Shown here piece by piece: positions 17,650 through 28,932 of a DNA stretch of 64,000 nt. The notes under the pieces are model-generated. The model was not told the DNA's origin, did no database searches, and saw only the letters and a program-made list of their open reading frames with translations. A program made the translations under genes and the position numbers. Source of the stretch: Planctomycetota bacterium (GTDB lineage: Bacteria; Planctomycetota; Phycisphaerae; UBA1845); NCBI GenBank assembly GCA_024276605.1, contig JAJRWX010000023.1, positions 17,538-81,537 on the forward strand. Direction: 5' to 3'. Within the stretch, counting starts at the first letter, position 1; each line of letters starts with the position of its first letter.

Positions 17650-19260
17650 CTATCGGACAGCGTGCTCAATTTCCTGATCGTCATCCTTCACGTCGGTCAA
17701 AAGAACCTCCGTCGTGAGCATCAAGCCGGCTACGCTCGCCGCATTCTCTAACGCGACACGGGAGACCTTAGCTGGATCAATAATCCCGGCCTTGATCATG
17801 TCCACGAATTCGCCCTTGCGTGCGTCAAATCCCTGTGTACCACTCTTTTCGAGGATTTGCTCGACGATAACCTCGCCCTCCAGACCGCTGTTTTCCACAA
17901 TCTGTGTGGCAGGTGCGCGAAGGGCCTTAGCGATAATGTCTACCCCTATCTTTTCGTCACCGCGAGCCTTGTCGCGCATCTTGTTGACGGCAGCAATAGA
18001 CCTGAGAAACGCCACGCCGCCACCAGGTACGATCCCTTCCTCCGCAGCGGCTTTGGTGGCATGGAATGCATCGTCAACCAAATCCTTGCGTTCTTTCACT
18101 TCCACTTCCGTCGCACCACCCACGCGAATCACCGCGACGCCACCGGTGAGCTTAGCCAATCGTTCCTGCAACTTCTCACGATCGTAATCACTGGTGCTTT
18201 TTTCGATTTGTCCGCGAATCTGCTCGCAACGAGCTTGAATGTCAGACTTTTTACCAACGCCCTGGATCACCGTTGTAGTGTCTTTGGTGATGACAACTTT
18301 TTTCGCGCTACCCATATCCTTGACTGTCACACTTTCGAGCTTAATACCAAGGTCTTCACTGATAAGCTTGCCACCCGTAACTGCGGCCAAATCCTGAAGC
18401 ATAGCCACGCGTCGGTCACCAAAACCTGGGGCCTTAATCGCGCAACATTTGAGTACGCCCCGCATCTTATTTACCACCAAACCAGCCAGTGCGTCTCCAT
18501 CGACGTCTTCTGCAATCACCAGCAGAGACTTACCCGCAGTCGAAACCGCTTCGAGCACAGGTACGAAATCGCGCAAGTTGGAAATCTTCTTTTCATAGAT
18601 CAAAATGAGCGGATTACTCAGCACACACTCAAGAGACCCCGGATCGGACATGAAGTAAGGAGACAAATACCCCTTATCAAACTGCATACCGTCGACCACT
18701 TCCTTTTCCGTCTCCAGCGCGTCACCCTCTTCAACTTCCACCACACCGTCTTTGCCTACGGCATCCATTGCACTGGCGAGAAGCTTACCGATGGTTTCGT
18801 CACCGTTGGCTGAAATCGTCGCGACCTTAGCAAGATCGTCATTAGAGCGAACCTTGACGGACAACGTCTTGATCGCATCAACCGCAGCCCCTACCGCCAG
18901 CTCAATACCCCGCTTAATAGCCATCGGATTCGCACCGGCAGCTACCGTCTTATACCCTTCACGGAAAATAGCTTCCGCTAATACCGTGGCAGCCGTCGTG
19001 CCATCACCCACGATATCCGAGGTTTTGGTCGCTACCTGGTTGATGAGTTTGGCACCCATATTTTCAAATGGTGAGGGAAGTTCGACTTCCTTACTTACAC
19101 TCACTCCGTCTTTGGTCGCCCGCGGCAAACCAAACGACTTTTGAAGCATTACATTTCGGCCTGTCGGTCCCATCGTGACCTTGACCGCTCTTGCCAACTT
19201 GCTCACACCTTCCAGAATCTCCCGCTTGGCTTCCTGGGAAAACATCATTTGCTTGGCCAT
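17650..19260 (-). CDS. groEL2: Chaperonin GroEL (second copy, lacking a GGM-rich C-terminal tail)
   Basis: [44 protein letters not shown]..., [30 protein letters not shown]-terminus ...[17 protein letters not shown]. Confidence 0.93.
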
Positions 19261-19406
19261 CGACCAATCTCCTATTTCTGTTATCGCCGCAACGCGGCCT
19301 AGTGCCATATGCACCAATAAAGCATTCTCAATACAAGTGCAGCGTGAATGATCAATAAACTACGAGCATATCCACACCCAAGCGCCACCCCCAAGAGCAG
19401 CTTGCC

Positions 19407-19724
19407 CTAGTCCACGATGGCAAGAATATCGCTTTCACGAATCACGACGTATTGCTCAGTACCAAAATCAACTTCGGTGCCGGCATACTTACCGTAAAAC
19501 ACTTCATCGCCAAGAGACACCGATAGCTCACCGCGATTGCCGCTGTCGAGCATTTTACCCGGCCCCATCGCCACGACCGTACCACGTTGCGGTTTTTCAC
19601 GCGCTGCGTCCGGTAAAATAATACCACCGGATGTAACTTCACTAGCCTCACAAGGCTCAATCAATACACGATCGTCCATCGGTCGAAACTTAATCTTCGT
19701 CTTTTTTGCTGTCGCTGTTGCCAT
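19407..19724 (-). CDS. groES: Co-chaperonin GroES
   Basis: KFRPMDDRVLIEPCEASEVTSGGIILPDAAREKPQRGTVVAMGPGK. Confidence 0.93.
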   Translation of the reverse strand: MATATAKKTKIKFRPMDDRVLIEPCEASEVTSGGIILPDAAREKPQRGTVVAMGPGKMLDSGNRGELSVSLGDEVFYGKYAGTEVDFGTEQYVVIRESDILAIVD

Positions 19725-19920
19725 CTCTTTAGTATTCTCCGTATCGGAAAGTAACCACTACGTTGCTATCTACTATCGTATTCTCTCTTTTAACGTGCGT
19801 TATAACCGCCAATCATTTATGGATGATCCCAGTTTCAGTCGCCACGTAAAAATAGAGCCTAACTTAATCGAGCCGCTGGATCACGCGGGCTGCGCTCACG
19901 CGTCAACCTTGCCCATACGG

Positions 19921-21558
19921 CTACATCATACCGCCCATTTCATCCATACCCGGCATCGCACCACCATCGCCTTTTTCCTTAGGCTGATCCGTAATGCACA
20001 CGTCGGTACTCAACAAAATACGGGCTACGCTGCTACCATTTTCCAATGCACTTCGCACAACCTTGGTCGGGTCAATCACACCGGCTTTCATCAAGTCGGT
20101 ATACTCAATCGTATCACCGTTAAAACCGAACGATCCACGCTGCGAAGCAACCTTATGGAGCACCACACCGGGATTCACGCCGGCATTTTCAGCAATCTGA
20201 CGAATAGGCGCCGTGATCGCCTCTCGAACGATCTCAACGCCGGTCTTCTGGTCGCCCTTAAGCTTTAAGTTGTCCAGGGCCTCAACCGCACGAACCAGTG
20301 CAACACCACCGCCAACCACAATGCCTTCTTCCAAGGCTGCTCGAGTTGCGTGCAAGGCGTCTTCCACGCGGGCCTTTTTTTCTTTGAGTTCAGACTCCGT
20401 CGCAGCGCCGACATTGATCTGCGCCACGCCACCGGCCAGCTTGGCCTTACGCTCTTGCAGCTTTTCGGTGTCATAATCAGACGTCGAGGTTGAAATCTCT
20501 TGATCGATTTGCGCGATGCGAGATTTAATATCCGCGGTTGAACCGGCGCCTTCGATCATAATCGTGTCGTTGGCGTCGATACGTATCTTCTTGGCCTGCC
20601 CCAAGTCGCTTATGGAAATTTTCTCAAGATCAAGACCGAGGTCTTCCATGATAGCAGTGCCACCGGTCAACATGGCTATATCGCCAAGCATCGCCTTGCG
20701 ACGATCACCGTAACCCGGGGCTTTCACAGCACAAACTTGTATAATACCTTTGAGCTTATTAACCACCAACGTAGCCAACGCTTCACCTTCCACATCCTCG
20801 GCAATAATGAGCAATGGACGCTTGGTCTTGGCTACCTTTTCCAACAGCGGAACGAGCTTGGGCACACTGCTGATTTTCTTTTCGTAGATAAGAATGAATG
20901 CCTTATCGAGGCGACACTCGACGGCATCCTGATCGGTAACAAAGTGAGGCGACAAAAAGCCGCGATCAAATTGCATACCTTCAACAACGTCGATGGTGGT
21001 TTCAGAAGTTTTTCCTTCTTCAACCGTGATTACGCCATCTTTGCCAACCTTCTCGAAGCAGTCTGCAAGAAGCTTGCCGATGACTGCATCATTGTTAGCT
21101 GAGATTTTGGCGACGTTGATAATATCGTCCTTCTTGTTCACACGAACGGGGCGCGACATGTCTGCGAGTTTGTCCACGATCTTGCGTACCGCAGCTTCAA
21201 TGCCGCGACCGATCGCAAACCCATCCGCGCCGGCGGCGATGTTTTTCAAACCGAGTTTGAAAATCGCTTCCGCGAGAATGGTGGCCGTCGTGGTCCCGTC
21301 ACCGGCGACCTCAGACGTCTTGCTGGCCGCTTCTTTGACCAACTGAGCGCCCAAATTCTCATATTTGTCGGCTAAATCGACTTCCTCAGCCACCGTGACG
21401 CCATCCTTGGTGACAGTAGGACTTCCCCACCCCTTATCAATTACCGCGTTTCGGCCTCTGGGACCTAGCGTTGACTTGACTGCGGCGGCGAGTTTTTCCA
21501 CGCCTTCCCGCAACGCCTGTCTCGCCTCCTGATCGTAGGCTAACTGCTTTACAGCCAT
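19921..21558 (-). CDS. groEL: Chaperonin GroEL (first copy, with GGM-type C-terminal tail)
   Basis: [45 protein letters not shown]..., [17 protein letters not shown]-terminus [14 protein letters not shown]. Confidence 0.95.
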
Positions 21559-21863
21559 GTTGCCGTTCTCCTCAAACCTGCTGGCATTAGAAAAAATAAC
21601 CGTTACATAACGATTTACGTTTTGACTTTGTAGACCGATCGCGGCAGCGCGCAGACCGATCAACCGATGTGTGTACACATTGGGGACCAGAATGCCTGCA
21701 GGGCGGAAGACGACCTAACTCGTTAATTGGCAACAAGTTGCGCTGCGTAGCATATCCGGAAAGTAAAGTTCTCATCCTGCCACGATGGCAGGCCACTGGT
21801 TGGGGATTGATTTAACATGCCAATTTGACAGCAAGGATCGAACCGGAGCATCTGATTCACAAG

Positions 21864-22163: not shown

Positions 22164-23675
22164 ATGGAAACAACGTCAAAAACCAAAATCAATCGGCTAT
22201 CCGAGCACGATGGACAAATCGTCACGCTCAGCGGGTGGGTCTACAACACACGGGTATCAGGCAAAATCGCCTTCGTCATCCTGCGCGACGGCACGGGTAT
22301 GTGCCAATGCGTATTCGAGAAAAGCGACGAGCTAGCTGAAGTATTCGCCACTGTCAAAACACTTTCCCAGGAATCAGCAGTCGAGGTTACCGGGGTCGTC
22401 AACAAAGAGGATCGCTCCATCGGTGGTTATGAAATGAAAGCGTCCGGTTTGAGCGTGGTCCATGCATCCAGCGATTATCCCATTACGCCCAAGCCCCACG
22501 GTATCGATTTCTTGATGAAACATCGCCATTTGTGGTTCCGATCCAAACGACAATGGCACATCATGCGCATACGGTCTACGGTCATCGACCAGATACGCCG
22601 TTTCTTCAACGACAACGGCTTCATTCTCTTCGACTCACCCATTTTCGCCCCCGCTGCCGGTGAAGGTTCGCAGACGCTGTTCAAAGTTGATTACTTTGGT
22701 GACGAGGTCTATCTCGCGCAGACCGGGCAATTGTACCTCGAAGCAGCCTGCATGGCCCACGGCAAAGTCTTCTGTTTCGGCCCGACCTTCCGCGCGGAAA
22801 AAAGTAAGACGCGCCGGCACCTCACCGAATTTTGGATGGTGGAACCGGAGATCGCGTTCGCCAGCCTGAGCGATGTGATAGACCTGGCTGAGGATTTTAT
22901 TTGCTCCATCGTCCAGCGCGTATTGAATGACCATCGTGAAGCGCTGATCGAACTCGGTCGAGACATATCCGATCTCGAAGCCATCCAACGCCCGTTTGTC
23001 CGTCTCGCATACGATCAAGCAGTGGAGTTGCTACACAGTGACAAATCTAAGACCCTTCTAGAAAATGACTTGTCCGAGAAAACGGCCAAGATAGAAGAAT
23101 TAGCTTCAACCATCGTTGAGCTTGAGGAAATCGCCAAAGGCGGCGGTAAGCAGTGGAAAAAGGACAAAGCCGCAGCCGACGCCATTGCCGCCCGTGAACA
23201 GCGCAGCGAGTTAGAGGAGCAGGTCAAAAACATCCCGCATCACATGCAACTCGCAGCCAACTTTGAATGGGGTAGTGACCTGGGCGGTTCTGACGAAACC
23301 ATCATTTCCCGCCTGCACGACCGTCCGGTCTGCGTCACGCATTACCCACGGGGCGTCAAAGCGTTTTACATGCGTCAGGACCGCGAAAACGAAAAGGTCG
23401 TCGAGTGTTTCGACATGCTCGCCCCGCAGGGCTTCGGCGAGATCATCGGCGGCTCAGCCAGAGAAGAAGATTACGATCGGCTGGTCGAGCGCATGAAGCA
23501 AGAACACCTACCGCAAGAGGATTACGAATGGTACCTAGACCTTCGCCGCTACGGCTCCGTCCCACACGGCGGCTTCGGATTAGGCGTAGAGCGAACCCTA
23601 GCCTGGCTATGCGGCCTAAAACACATCAGAGAAACCATTCCCTACCCACGCATGATGGGCAAGTTTTATCCGTAG
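22164..23675 (+). CDS. asnS: Asparaginyl-tRNA synthetase
   Basis: GWVYNTRVSGKIAFVILRDGTG (OB fold), GPTFRAEKSKTRRHLTEFWMVEPE, GEIIGGSAREEDYDRL, DLRRYGSVPHGGFGLGVERTLAWLCGL; carries an unusual insertion (see findings). Confidence 0.95.
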   Translation: METTSKTKINRLSEHDGQIVTLSGWVYNTRVSGKIAFVILRDGTGMCQCVFEKSDELAEVFATVKTLSQESAVEVTGVVNKEDRSIGGYEMKASGLSVVHASSDYPITPKPHGIDFLMKHRHLWFRSKRQWHIMRIRSTVIDQIRRFFNDNGFILFDSPIFAPAAGEGSQTLFKVDYFGDEVYLAQTGQLYLEAACMAHGKVFCFGPTFRAEKSKTRRHLTEFWMVEPEIAFASLSDVIDLAEDFICSIVQRVLNDHREALIELGRDISDLEAIQRPFVRLAYDQAVELLHSDKSKTLLENDLSEKTAKIEELASTIVELEEIAKGGGKQWKKDKAAADAIAAREQRSELEEQVKNIPHHMQLAANFEWGSDLGGSDETIISRLHDRPVCVTHYPRGVKAFYMRQDRENEKVVECFDMLAPQGFGEIIGGSAREEDYDRLVERMKQEHLPQEDYEWYLDLRRYGSVPHGGFGLGVERTLAWLCGLKHIRETIPYPRMMGKFYP

Positions 23676-23681
23676 GGAAAA

Positions 23682-25223
23682 ATGAACGGCGTACTTATGA
23701 AAAACGAAACCATCAACTCATTAAAACCAGCACCGGTTGTTTTTTGCTCATATGCGCACGAAACTTTAGAACACAATGCTTGGGTAAAAAGTCTCGGCGA
23801 AAAACTTCGCGCTGATGGAGTTGATTTACTACTAGATGTCTTTCATCTGGGACTAGGTGACGATTTGATGTTGTTCATGGAAAATATTTCAGAATCTAAC
23901 CGAGTGATTCTCGTGTGTACCCCAACCTACGCAACTAAAGCTAACACAGGAAAAGGAGGTGTTGGCTATGAGCGATCGGTTATCACTTCAGAATTAGCAA
24001 AAAAAATCGACACCAACAAATTTGTTTGCATTTTACGTTCAGGAGACGCCGACAAATCAATTCCTATTTTTGCAAAATCAAAACTTTTTGTTGATTTTCG
24101 TGATGAATTGAAATTTCAAGATTCTTATGATGAGTTGCTGAGCGATTTACATGATGCAAACACAAATCGAGAACCGGTACTTGGACCAAATCGATTTGAA
24201 GTTTCCAACGAAAAGGAATCCGCAAGTACAAGCGCAACCTCGAATGGCTTTACAATACAGAGAGTAAAATACAGCACTGACCTCCTCGATAAAGCTGAGA
24301 TCATTCTTCAAGCAAGAAACAGGATGGAGTGGAAAAAACTACTACTAGAAACACGCAAGAATTTTGTCAATAATATTTGTACCTGGCGTTCAACGGCGGA
24401 GGCTAGGAATCCGAGTGATTATACGCGAGAGGAAATTTTCGAGAGTGGAGTAGATATATGCGAGCCGATGCTGAAGCTTTCCATTTCGGCGGCCTACTCT
24501 GAATTACCTGAATTTCAGAATCAAATAGAATTCATTGATGATCTTCGGAACATTGAGGGATGGCAGGTTTACGGTTGCACCCTACTCATCAGCATGCCAG
24601 ACGCTCTGGCTTACATATATCATCATTTACTAGGCTCGATGCTCATAGAGTCTGACCAACATTTGCGCGCTGTGGAGTTGTTAACATGTACCTTCACTGA
24701 GCGGCGATATCAAGAGACCGTTCCGTTGTGGCAAGAATCACAAATGATGGGCTGGGTCGATTTTCTAGACGGAAATTGTATAACCTCTTGGAAATACATG
24801 ACCAGCATTTTCATCAAACGAACTTGGCTCGATAGATTCTTCTTATCACAAAAACAATTCATTGAGGGGTACAGGGCATATTGCGCGCTGGCTTCCGTGA
24901 TAGAGCTTGCATCTACATTGGGTAGCAGTCAATCAATACAGCAACATCCCGTTCAATCACACGCAGTCCCAACAACATTTCTGCATCCCATTGATCAGAA
25001 TGGTGCAGACTATTCTAGAGTGCTAAGTAAAGCTATTCCGGCAATAGACATACTGGAGACAATTGCCTTACGTTCAAAAACAACCGTCGCAGCCATACAC
25101 GATGCCTGGAACGATTGGTATCTGAGTTGTGTTCGACGACTTGGAGAATACCATTACGGTTCCCTCAGTCGCAAATTAAGCAGAACAGCAGCCCCGTCTT
25201 TACCCCACATCACGACTCGCTAG
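23682..25223 (+). CDS. SEFIR/TIR-like domain protein with uncharacterised C-terminal region
   Basis: N-terminal PVVFCSYAHETLEHNAWVKSLGEKLRADGVDLLLDVFHLGLGDDLMLFMENISESNRVILVCTPTYATKANTGKGGVGYERSVITSELAKK matches the SEFIR family pattern (SYxH...W...L...L...G.D..LD......G.D...FME.....D.VI.VCT..Y..KA....GGVGYE...I..EL). Alternative ATG at 23697. Confidence 0.88.
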   Translation: MNGVLMKNETINSLKPAPVVFCSYAHETLEHNAWVKSLGEKLRADGVDLLLDVFHLGLGDDLMLFMENISESNRVILVCTPTYATKANTGKGGVGYERSVITSELAKKIDTNKFVCILRSGDADKSIPIFAKSKLFVDFRDELKFQDSYDELLSDLHDANTNREPVLGPNRFEVSNEKESASTSATSNGFTIQRVKYSTDLLDKAEIILQARNRMEWKKLLLETRKNFVNNICTWRSTAEARNPSDYTREEIFESGVDICEPMLKLSISAAYSELPEFQNQIEFIDDLRNIEGWQVYGCTLLISMPDALAYIYHHLLGSMLIESDQHLRAVELLTCTFTERRYQETVPLWQESQMMGWVDFLDGNCITSWKYMTSIFIKRTWLDRFFLSQKQFIEGYRAYCALASVIELASTLGSSQSIQQHPVQSHAVPTTFLHPIDQNGADYSRVLSKAIPAIDILETIALRSKTTVAAIHDAWNDWYLSCVRRLGEYHYGSLSRKLSRTAAPSLPHITTR

Positions 25224-25320
25224 TTACATAGTTTATAACTGTGCAGGCCGGATCATCGCTCAAGCACCACCGCGACCTTGCTCGTTCGCAAAATAGCTAT
25301 GATTTGATTATCATACCGAC

Positions 25321-25941
25321 ATGACAATCGACACCATCGTGACAGATCTTCCGCTTCGCTATCAAACGCCCAGCGATTGGGTTGCGCTGGTTATGCAAGA
25401 CCCGCTCGCGTTGCTTAACGATCACGCTCATCTGGAAAAAAAAGCGGCTGGCAATGCGTTGGAATTGCTGAATCGTTGGCCCGAACCAAACCCGCCTGAA
25501 AATTGGGTTAAGGTGATGACGGCTATCGCACGGGACGAAGTCGAGCACCTAGCCATCGTCGTGCGCCTACTCGCTCGTCGCGGCGGGGAACTCACGCGCT
25601 ACCATCGCAACCCCTACGCCGCGCAGCTTCATCAGTTAGTGCGTATGGGACAGGGACGAGATGAACTCATGGACCGACTCATGATTAGTGCCTTAATCGA
25701 GGCACGCTCCTGCGAACGATTCGCGGTCCTGGCAGCGCACTGTGAAGACGAGGAACTAGCTCGTCTATACGCCAATCTCTACACATCAGAAGCGGGGCAT
25801 TACGAAATCTTCATCGGCCTGGCAAGGGAGCTACCGCACATTCGCCTCGTCGATCAGAGATGGGAACAAATGCTCGATGCCGAGGCTGAAATCATTGCCA
25901 GCCAACCGCCGGGGCCTAGTATGCACAGCGGGTTATCGTAG
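25321..25941 (+). CDS. miaE: tRNA-(ms2io6A)-hydroxylase MiaE-like diiron protein
   Basis: LLNDHAHLEKKAAGNALELLNRWPEP, ARDEVEHLAIVVRLLARRGG, ALIEARSCERFAVLA, LYTSEAGHYEIFIGLA: E/ExxH metal ligands and MiaE family pattern. Confidence 0.88.
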   Translation: MTIDTIVTDLPLRYQTPSDWVALVMQDPLALLNDHAHLEKKAAGNALELLNRWPEPNPPENWVKVMTAIARDEVEHLAIVVRLLARRGGELTRYHRNPYAAQLHQLVRMGQGRDELMDRLMISALIEARSCERFAVLAAHCEDEELARLYANLYTSEAGHYEIFIGLARELPHIRLVDQRWEQMLDAEAEIIASQPPGPSMHSGLS

Positions 25942-26832: not shown

Positions 26833-28932
26833 TTATAAAAAGCTTGCACGTAAACGCTTAAGCACTTTCCCCCACGCACGATCGAAATACCCATAGCAAG
26901 TATCCCAATCATCCCCTTGGCCAAAGCCAATATGATATAAGGCCAGCTCCGTAAAACCGTCAGCTTGCGATTTCATACGTAAGATGACATGCGTGCGATT
27001 CTCCGCTGTTCTAAGGCTCGGGATGGATGGTGGTGCAATCCATGTAAAAGCCAGTAGTTTATCCGGTACGTAGGCTAGTATTTCGCAACCCTCGCAACCA
27101 CGCTGCCCTTGTTGCGCTTCCGGTTGCATGAACAACTCATAAGCCCCGCCAATGCGTATTTCAACATTGGCCTGCTTGGCGAAAAACTTGGCTAGCCCTT
27201 CTTGCGTTGTCCAAGCGTTCCACACTTGACTCGGTGTAGCTTTAACCAGCACTTTCTTTTTCAACGTGCGCCCCGGCCAAGAAGTTTTTTCAGCAGGCGG
27301 CAACGGCCTTACTTCTACGCCGCGCGCCGACCAATCGATAGGTCCGTCGGTAAATCGTTTGTAAAGCATTTCCAAGAAGACCGGATTATGCTCGATAAAG
27401 TATTCAAAAGCTTTGTCCCACTCTTTACCATCAGGCCAATCGACCATAGTCATGCGCACACGCGTATGATGATCTTCAAGCTCATCCAACAACATCACCC
27501 ATCGCGTTTTTTCCTTTTGTACCTGCGGAAACATCGGCGGTGCGCTGCCCGTGCCGGCTAACATCTGCTTGGGCAATAGCGTAAATAATGTCGTCCCCTC
27601 CATGCCGCGCTGACCTGGCGGCGCATTGGGTCTAAAGTGGTATTCGTACGTCCCTCCAGGCTTTAACGCCATCCGCCCACCAGGACAATAGAATTCTCGC
27701 GCACCTTCTATCGTAGCCAATGCACGCCAAACGGATGCTCGCGAAGCCGGGACATCAATCTCAAAATCAAGCCGCTTCAATGGTTTCCGGGTCACCGTTA
27801 CCTTCACATGCCCATGTTGATGCGAAGTTGAATCAACATCCTCGCGAATTGCGGTATTTTTACTACCCTCAGATTTTGCGATAAAATATTTGTTAAGTTC
27901 TTTCAGCGTCCAATCATTCCCCATCTTAAAAAAACTTCTCATCCTTTGAGATTGTTCACTCTCATCGTATCCCATGCCAACAATGCGTATACTGGTGCGT
28001 CGCGGTGATAACGCCTCGAAATACATCACCGACCAAGTCTTCGCTATCGCATCCTTAAATGGAAACGAAGCGGGTGGTTTGGTCGCTTTGAGTGAGATCA
28101 TACGCTGCGGATCAAAACTTAGGATGGTGTTCTCAATCGTATTAGCATCGCCAAGCTTGCCATCTGCGTGATAGTTCGCAAGCATCTTTCCACCAACGCG
28201 TAAGTCAATGATAGCCAGCGGTGCCATCCAAGCAGCTAATCCCTTGGATGTCGCAAACGCATCCCAGACAAAATCCAAGGGGGCATTAATTTCACTTACA
28301 TGAACCAGCGGCGCCAAACTTTCAACGTTTTTTTCATGAGAAGAGGCCTCATCAGAGCTATGCTTAGCGTCCTTCTTATTTGGGTTTGCGTTGGCAACGG
28401 ACGTCTGTACATATTCATTCAAACGTTGGAGTTTACGTTCGTTATTCTTCTCAAAAAGGGCTAGCATTTGCTGGGCGGTATCGCCGGGACCATATCCATG
28501 ACTGGAAATACGCACGCCCGTTTTATCATGGCTAAGATCATCGAAATAGACCACCGTCCATATTTTCAGATAGGCCTCCCGGTACGATAAATTTTTTGGC
28601 GCGGACATCGGTCTAAAGGCAATCATTCGCTCAGGTTCAAAAGTCAGAACTTGTGTCTCGAAAGTTTGCTCATCGCCCAGTTTGCCGTTGGCATTATAAT
28701 TAGTGCGTATGATCCCACCGACACGCAAATCCACTTCAGCCATTTTGACCGACCACTTCATCAGGTCTTCCGGATCGGTAAAGGCCTGCCATACGCGCTG
28801 GATAGGTGCATGAATGACAGACGCCACTTCAAAAGAAGAACGCTGCGCATAGGTAAAACCAGACAGCACAAAAACAAAGGGGACGATTATTATCCTAGAT
28901 TTACTACACATACAGGCTTCTCCCATCCTCAA
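26833..28932 (-). CDS. Exported protein with four tandem SRPBCC (AHSA1/START-like) domains
   Basis: Signal peptide (SRIIIVPFVFVLSGFTYAQ) followed by four AHSA1-like units beginning ...APIQRVWQAFTDPEDLMKW, ...APLDFVWDAFATSKGLAAW, ...ASRASVWRALATIEGAREF, ...ATPSQVWNAWTTQEGLAKF. Confidence 0.85.
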   Translation of the reverse strand: MRMGEACMCSKSRIIIVPFVFVLSGFTYAQRSSFEVASVIHAPIQRVWQAFTDPEDLMKWSVKMAEVDLRVGGIIRTNYNANGKLGDEQTFETQVLTFEPERMIAFRPMSAPKNLSYREAYLKIWTVVYFDDLSHDKTGVRISSHGYGPGDTAQQMLALFEKNNERKLQRLNEYVQTSVANANPNKKDAKHSSDEASSHEKNVESLAPLVHVSEINAPLDFVWDAFATSKGLAAWMAPLAIIDLRVGGKMLANYHADGKLGDANTIENTILSFDPQRMISLKATKPPASFPFKDAIAKTWSVMYFEALSPRRTSIRIVGMGYDESEQSQRMRSFFKMGNDWTLKELNKYFIAKSEGSKNTAIREDVDSTSHQHGHVKVTVTRKPLKRLDFEIDVPASRASVWRALATIEGAREFYCPGGRMALKPGGTYEYHFRPNAPPGQRGMEGTTLFTLLPKQMLAGTGSAPPMFPQVQKEKTRWVMLLDELEDHHTRVRMTMVDWPDGKEWDKAFEYFIEHNPVFLEMLYKRFTDGPIDWSARGVEVRPLPPAEKTSWPGRTLKKKVLVKATPSQVWNAWTTQEGLAKFFAKQANVEIRIGGAYELFMQPEAQQGQRGCEGCEILAYVPDKLLAFTWIAPPSIPSLRTAENRTHVILRMKSQADGFTELALYHIGFGQGDDWDTCYGYFDRAWGKVLKRLRASFL

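Follow-up and report, generated by a model that had tools for sequence, protein, structure and literature searches.

The window, that is, the whole stretch of 64,000 nucleotides analysed here, carries between asnS and a miaE-like tRNA hydroxylase gene an intact open reading frame with an ATG start, which encodes a 513-aa protein with an N-terminal SEFIR domain and an all-helical C-terminal module (Table 1). The gene, referred to below as the SEFIR-module gene, stands alone, and neither a defence nor a mobile neighbour is present at the locus. Since the asnS stop codon lies at 23673-23675, the gap between the two genes is 6 bp, in line with the initial annotation. The latter had also described the frame as AT-richer than its neighbours, and a GC and codon analysis bore this out: its GC content is 0.426 against a mean of 0.519 for window genes (z -4.4; 37 long window genes), and it ranks last of these 37 in GC, in GC3 and in codon score, making it both the most AT-rich and the most codon-deviant. 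No transmembrane segment is evident in the 513-aa protein (best 19-residue hydropathy 1.3).

Table 1. Positions of the SEFIR-module gene, its parts and its neighbours in the window.
Feature	Position	Strand	Basis
asnS (asparaginyl-tRNA synthetase), upstream neighbour	22164..23675	+	proteins 89-90% identical in G001 and G002 (sister genomes)
Stretch without G001 counterpart at either flanking block	23677..25285	.	blastn: G001 homology up to 23676 (asnS block) and again from 25286 (miaE block)
SEFIR-module gene	23682..25223	+	ATG start, intact ORF, 513 aa
SEFIR domain, aa 18-168	23733..24185	+	PDB 5y8e alignment aa 18-153; Pfam 20-118/20-153; Foldseek; 16-domain alignment
Glu97 codon (GVGYE), presumed catalytic glutamate	23970..23972	+	16-SEFIR alignment; role by inference
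Linker, low confidence, aa 169-195	24186..24266	+	model pLDDT <50 across aa 162-198
All-helical C-terminal module, aa 196-510	24267..25211	+	five-row alignment A5; AlphaFold2 of module alone; homology tests
miaE-like tRNA hydroxylase, downstream neighbour	25321..25941	+	Pfam MiaE 4.6e-44; orthologues G001:C31, G002:C82

History of the locus

The groEL-groES-groEL-asnS block upstream is conserved in the genus, including the sister genomes G001 and G002. The miaE-VOC-SRPBCC-DUF1761-TetR block downstream is also conserved in both sisters, but away from the asnS block. In the window the two blocks meet with only the SEFIR-module gene between them, and the stretch without a G001 counterpart coincides almost exactly with this gene. 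No SEFIR gene was found behind asnS in 19 genomes of the family (both sisters and 17 others), in a few of which the contig ends soon after. Because of this absence in the sisters and of its deviant composition, the gene is, as far as sequence comparison can tell, an acquired, non-core gene, recent relative to the genus, and the horizontal acquisition proposed initially was thus upheld. The accompanying claim of an insertion behind asnS held in part: the gene does adjoin asnS, but as the flanking blocks lie apart in the sister genomes it sits at a rearrangement junction, and a clean insertion at this site is not proven. Searches around the gene for flanking direct repeats returned only short, chance-like ones, and no tRNA insertion site was found, the only tRNA being 12 kb off.

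Behind asnS, G001 has an AT-rich co-directional gene for a 397-aa HNH_5 protein (L027:7294-8487, minus strand), while G002 has an AT-rich co-directional HD-domain (dGTPase-like) gene together with one for a 174-aa DarG-C-like protein (L028:6926-8785, minus strand). Ordinary genes occupy the place behind asnS in other genera of the family, which makes a fixed defence slot less likely; the position is possibly a genus-specific variable slot. Two further features of the window were noted. At 17650-21678 (minus strand) one groES lies between two different groEL genes, an order kept in the sister genomes, and at 26833-28932 lies a gene for a 699-aa protein which, by reading of its sequence, contains repeated SRPBCC/AHSA1-like stretches, its G001 orthologue having only 366 aa.

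A SEFIR domain joined to a helical module

The N-terminus had been described as SEFIR-like, and profile searches of the 513-aa protein agreed with this. In Pfam, both TIR_2 (2.6e-13, 51 bits against a cut-off of 28) and SEFIR (PF08357, STIR clan; 5.1e-7, 30.5 bits against a cut-off of 23) were matched, and the PADLOC bSEFIR profile gave 6.3e-60 over aa 8-255 of the protein, but only over profile positions 37-261 of 412. The closest solved structures in a PDB profile search were the bacterial SEFIR domains 5y8e (9e-18) and 5y8f (~1e-17), the best TIR reaching 0.07. For the full-length AlphaFold2 model, built from three sequences (mean pLDDT 67), Foldseek placed 5y8e first (E 6.5e-7, TM (target) 0.80; best TIR 4.6e-3), and its matches in the PDB and viral libraries were confined to the SEFIR half. 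By sequence and by fold, the N-terminal domain is a SEFIR domain.

Ten residues are invariant across 16 aligned SEFIR domains (L42, G46, D52, G59, E67, Y83, V94, E97, P128 and P165). Glu97, found in 16/16, aligns with the TIR glutamate in 3/5 TIR outgroups, and it is presumed to be catalytic by analogy with TIR enzymes, e.g., E192 of SpbK (PMC11984713). In the same alignment the window protein is unusual in Cys22, where nearly all others have Ile, and in Gly39, where all others have Ala.

The C-terminal region had been said to match no recognised family, and this still stands. Searches of the roughly 320-aa tail in Pfam, PADLOC and PHROGs found no family, and there was no profile match in the PDB. 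AlphaFold2 of the module alone, on the five-row alignment A5, predicted a fold made entirely of helices (pTM 0.76, mean pLDDT 69), for which Foldseek against the PDB found nothing at E<=0.001; the best match had an E of 0.1, and only non-specific helical proteins were returned.

SEFIR genes were also encountered in other settings. G002 carries elsewhere a gene for a canonical bSEFIR protein (L036:8423-10003, minus strand) on a contig that also has a gpA-type phage terminase gene, and G001 has a gene for another kind of SEFIR protein, in which a hydrophobic stretch follows the SEFIR domain (L037:5857-6993, minus strand), near transposase and recombinase genes. In P2-like phages of Klebsiella and E. 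coli, SEFIR/TIR genes lie between the replication and portal genes (L060:3992-5425, L066:2992-3420), an interval that is a usual site of accessory defence genes in such phages.

Recurrence of the module with other TIR-superfamily partners

In the parts of one phylum and the few reference collections that we searched, the module appeared in five proteins, all from Planctomycetota. It occurs with three kinds of TIR-superfamily partner, namely SEFIR domains, a Cap12/Pycsar-like TIR domain and a KGGVGR ATPase encoded beside a TIR gene. The module follows a SEFIR domain in three proteins, one being that of the window. The second, 40% identical to it, is encoded in G023 (JADFMZ010000053.1), a MAG from the same family of Planctomycetota, where the gene (L035:2671-4185, plus strand) lies 26 bp behind hsdM, a type I restriction-system gene, and has an in-frame TGA where a conserved Trp is expected (W34 in the window protein). 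The third is found in G164, of the same phylum but another family, in a region with a tape-measure gene. Here a 336-aa upstream ORF of no recognised family (L082:11006-12016, minus strand) sits between the SEFIR-module gene and a phage integrase gene and overlaps the start of the former by 4 bp; its product is a possible partner of the SEFIR-module protein. The initial annotation had regarded the system as self-contained for want of an adjacent partner; this is plausible, but the G164 copy does have the overlapping ORF upstream.

The other two carriers are of a different make. In G759, a genome of the same class, the module makes up the C-terminal part of a 642-aa ATPase with the KGGVGR motif (NCBIfam 3.5e-42). 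This ATPase matches the PADLOC phage-defence candidate PDC-M28B (8e-24), and its gene overlaps a TIR gene lying upstream. A 158-aa ORF without a family match (L104:9842-10318, minus strand) precedes this pair, and the three may form one cassette. G801 belongs to the family of G759 and encodes a 500-aa protein with the module behind a Cap12/Pycsar-like TIR domain; this domain assignment rests on a Pfam match of 0.017 and 15.6 bits, under the cut-off of 24.7, and a PADLOC TIR effector match of 0.0017. The G759 and G801 proteins share 63% identity over 371 aa, the entire module included.

The first match beyond the SEFIR carriers (E 7e-7) came when genomes were searched with a profile of the SEFIR tails. 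With hmmsearch the G759 protein scored 3.3e-7, the best of 2000 shuffled sequences 0.6, and no shuffle control fell below 0.2. Comparison of the SEFIR tails with the TIR-associated tails by hhalign gave a P of 3e-6 over 271 columns, with a score of 48.8, whereas none of 200 column-shuffled controls exceeded 26.6. These comparisons show the module to be, at the sequence level, a separate, transferable domain recombined among TIR-superfamily partners. Since the TIR-associated modules are only 18-19% identical to that of the window (alignment A5), it is the shared architecture that suggests a shared function.

The module was not matched in plasmid and phage collections or in a scan of viral contigs. 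A single-protein search of genome contigs found no relative of the window protein, and an alignment-based scan of them only the G023 contig and SEFIR proteins of other architecture. Among the best-matching KGGVGR ATPases from 392 genomes of the phylum, the module was absent in those retrieved. A literature search on KGGVGR, or on SEFIR in Planctomycetes, yielded nothing useful.

Possible function and competing explanations

SEFIR systems reportedly cause abortive infection by depleting NAD+ (PMC12322248, PMC12774641, PMC11084316), and according to a review phages escape SEFIR, among other systems, through mutations in structural genes (PMC10286901). In SpbK, a single-gene TIR protein, and in the TIR-like Swarozyc, a separate domain detects the phage portal, and this binding brings the TIR-type domains together (PMC11984713, PMC13174449). 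The same plan is seen in the window protein, with a presumably enzymatic TIR-superfamily domain, a flexible linker and a large non-catalytic module. SpbK, from Bacillus subtilis ICEBs1, resembles it as a single-gene TIR-superfamily protein with a separate non-catalytic domain, and acts by abortive infection via NAD+ loss (PMC11984713), but its catalytic domain is TIR, not SEFIR, and its sensor domain is short (94 aa) and N-terminal. Swarozyc similarly joins a TIR-like NADase to an auxiliary domain that senses the portal (PMC13174449), but has DUF4062 where the window protein has SEFIR; DUF4062 was not among the Pfam matches of the latter up to E 10. TIR and KGGVGR ATPase cassettes (NCBIfam NF047398; PADLOC PDC-M28B) share the same C-terminal module in their G759 member, yet comprise two genes with an ATPase, and the other KGGVGR proteins retrieved do not have it. 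Cap12/Pycsar-type TIR effectors (PF10137) have a counterpart in G801, in which such a TIR-like domain is joined to the same module. The known effectors of this type are gated by cyclic-nucleotide-binding domains, and none was seen here.

With moderate confidence, we favour a reading in which the SEFIR-module gene would by itself bring about abortive infection: its protein, triggered through the module, would consume NAD+ in a Glu97-dependent way, the NADase activity, the phage trigger and the oligomerisation being what we infer. In the resting cell the SEFIR domain would be monomeric or held inactive. The module would recognise a phage product or an infection-linked change; by analogy the product would most likely be an oligomeric structural protein, and a phage structural protein is our leading guess for the target. 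The triggered module would bring SEFIR domains together, these would cleave NAD+ via Glu97, and the infected cell would stop growing before phage release. The module would be a regulatory domain whose partners are SEFIR, a Cap12-like TIR domain and, alongside a TIR protein, a KGGVGR ATPase; being common to three kinds of TIR-superfamily system is what is expected of a sensor or switch part. The original suggestion that the C-terminus would be a sensor or oligomerisation module has gained support from this recurrence. In favour of abortive infection we counted the SEFIR assignment by sequence and fold, the invariant Glu97, the three partner kinds, the relatives in defence or mobile contexts (behind hsdM, beside a phage integrase), the similarity of the G759 ATPase to PDC-M28B and the acquired state of the gene. 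Against it we counted the restriction to five carriers, all Planctomycetota, with no plasmid, phage or viral-contig match, the lack of a defence or mobile neighbour at the window, the sub-cut-off TIR-like match of G801 and the missing structural match for the module.

It is possible, if rather unlikely, that the protein depletes NAD in defence but that its module serves solely for oligomerisation or autoinhibition, in response to a host-side signal (a metabolite, a nucleotide, stalled translation), and does not sense phage proteins. The placement of the G759 module on the ATPase and not on the TIR protein, as expected of a regulatory or assembly part, and the predicted helical fold without a recognisable ligand-binding family would fit such a role. 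The portal binding of SpbK and Swarozyc by an extra domain (PMC11984713, PMC13174449) and the SEFIR escape mutations reported in structural proteins (PMC10286901) argue against it.

A two-component system, in which the module binds a partner or signal made elsewhere and the SEFIR domain produces or responds to a signalling nucleotide rather than just consuming NAD+, appears improbable. The overlapping 336-aa ORF of G164 is consistent with it, as is the G759 module, which works with a TIR gene in trans, but no partner lies beside the window gene and only hsdM beside the G023 copy. Moreover, the canonical bSEFIR of Millman et al. 2022 reportedly acts as a single gene.

This bSEFIR/SEFIR anti-phage protein is PADLOC PDLC03957, and the window protein resembles it in the N-terminal SEFIR with the same motifs and the invariant Glu, as well as in its stand-alone gene and patchy distribution. 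That it is an ordinary canonical bSEFIR with a merely diverged C-terminus, and nothing new, is nevertheless very improbable and, judging from the sequences, already contradicted, even though the PADLOC profile covers aa 8-255 and both tails look mostly helical. A canonical profile built from six proteins aligns to the window protein only as far as aa 199, and the two tails did not match by hmmsearch and reached a probability of 0.3% by hhalign; the roughly 320-aa C-terminus is therefore not the canonical tail. A homology of the tails, suspected by eye from helix patterns, was ruled out by these searches. The window tail does match the TIR-associated modules, against which the canonical tail gave no hhalign match, and in the SEFIR-domain tree the module carriers group in a clade of their own (support 100/96), with canonical bSEFIR in a separate one (97/90). 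Finally, a domesticated or decaying acquired gene without a current immune role, or a cell-signalling scaffold, is hardly credible, since the in-frame TGA of the G023 relative and the absence of defence neighbours at the window are set against an intact window ORF, conserved SEFIR residues kept except at Cys22 and Gly39, and relatives in defence or mobile contexts.

Beyond the abortive-infection reading favoured above, we tentatively propose that the module may be an unrecognised phage-sensing family recombining among SEFIR, Cap12-like TIR and TIR/KGGVGR-ATPase systems, each of which would respond to one and the same feature of the phage, an idea that could well prove wrong. If true, one sensor would be wired to three different NAD-consuming outputs. 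SEFIR proteins are already known as anti-phage effectors; what is new is a module that recurs behind other TIR-type systems, and its profile can be used for finding further carriers. With one non-catalytic module on three TIR-superfamily outputs, the way in which SEFIR proteins sense infection becomes directly testable.
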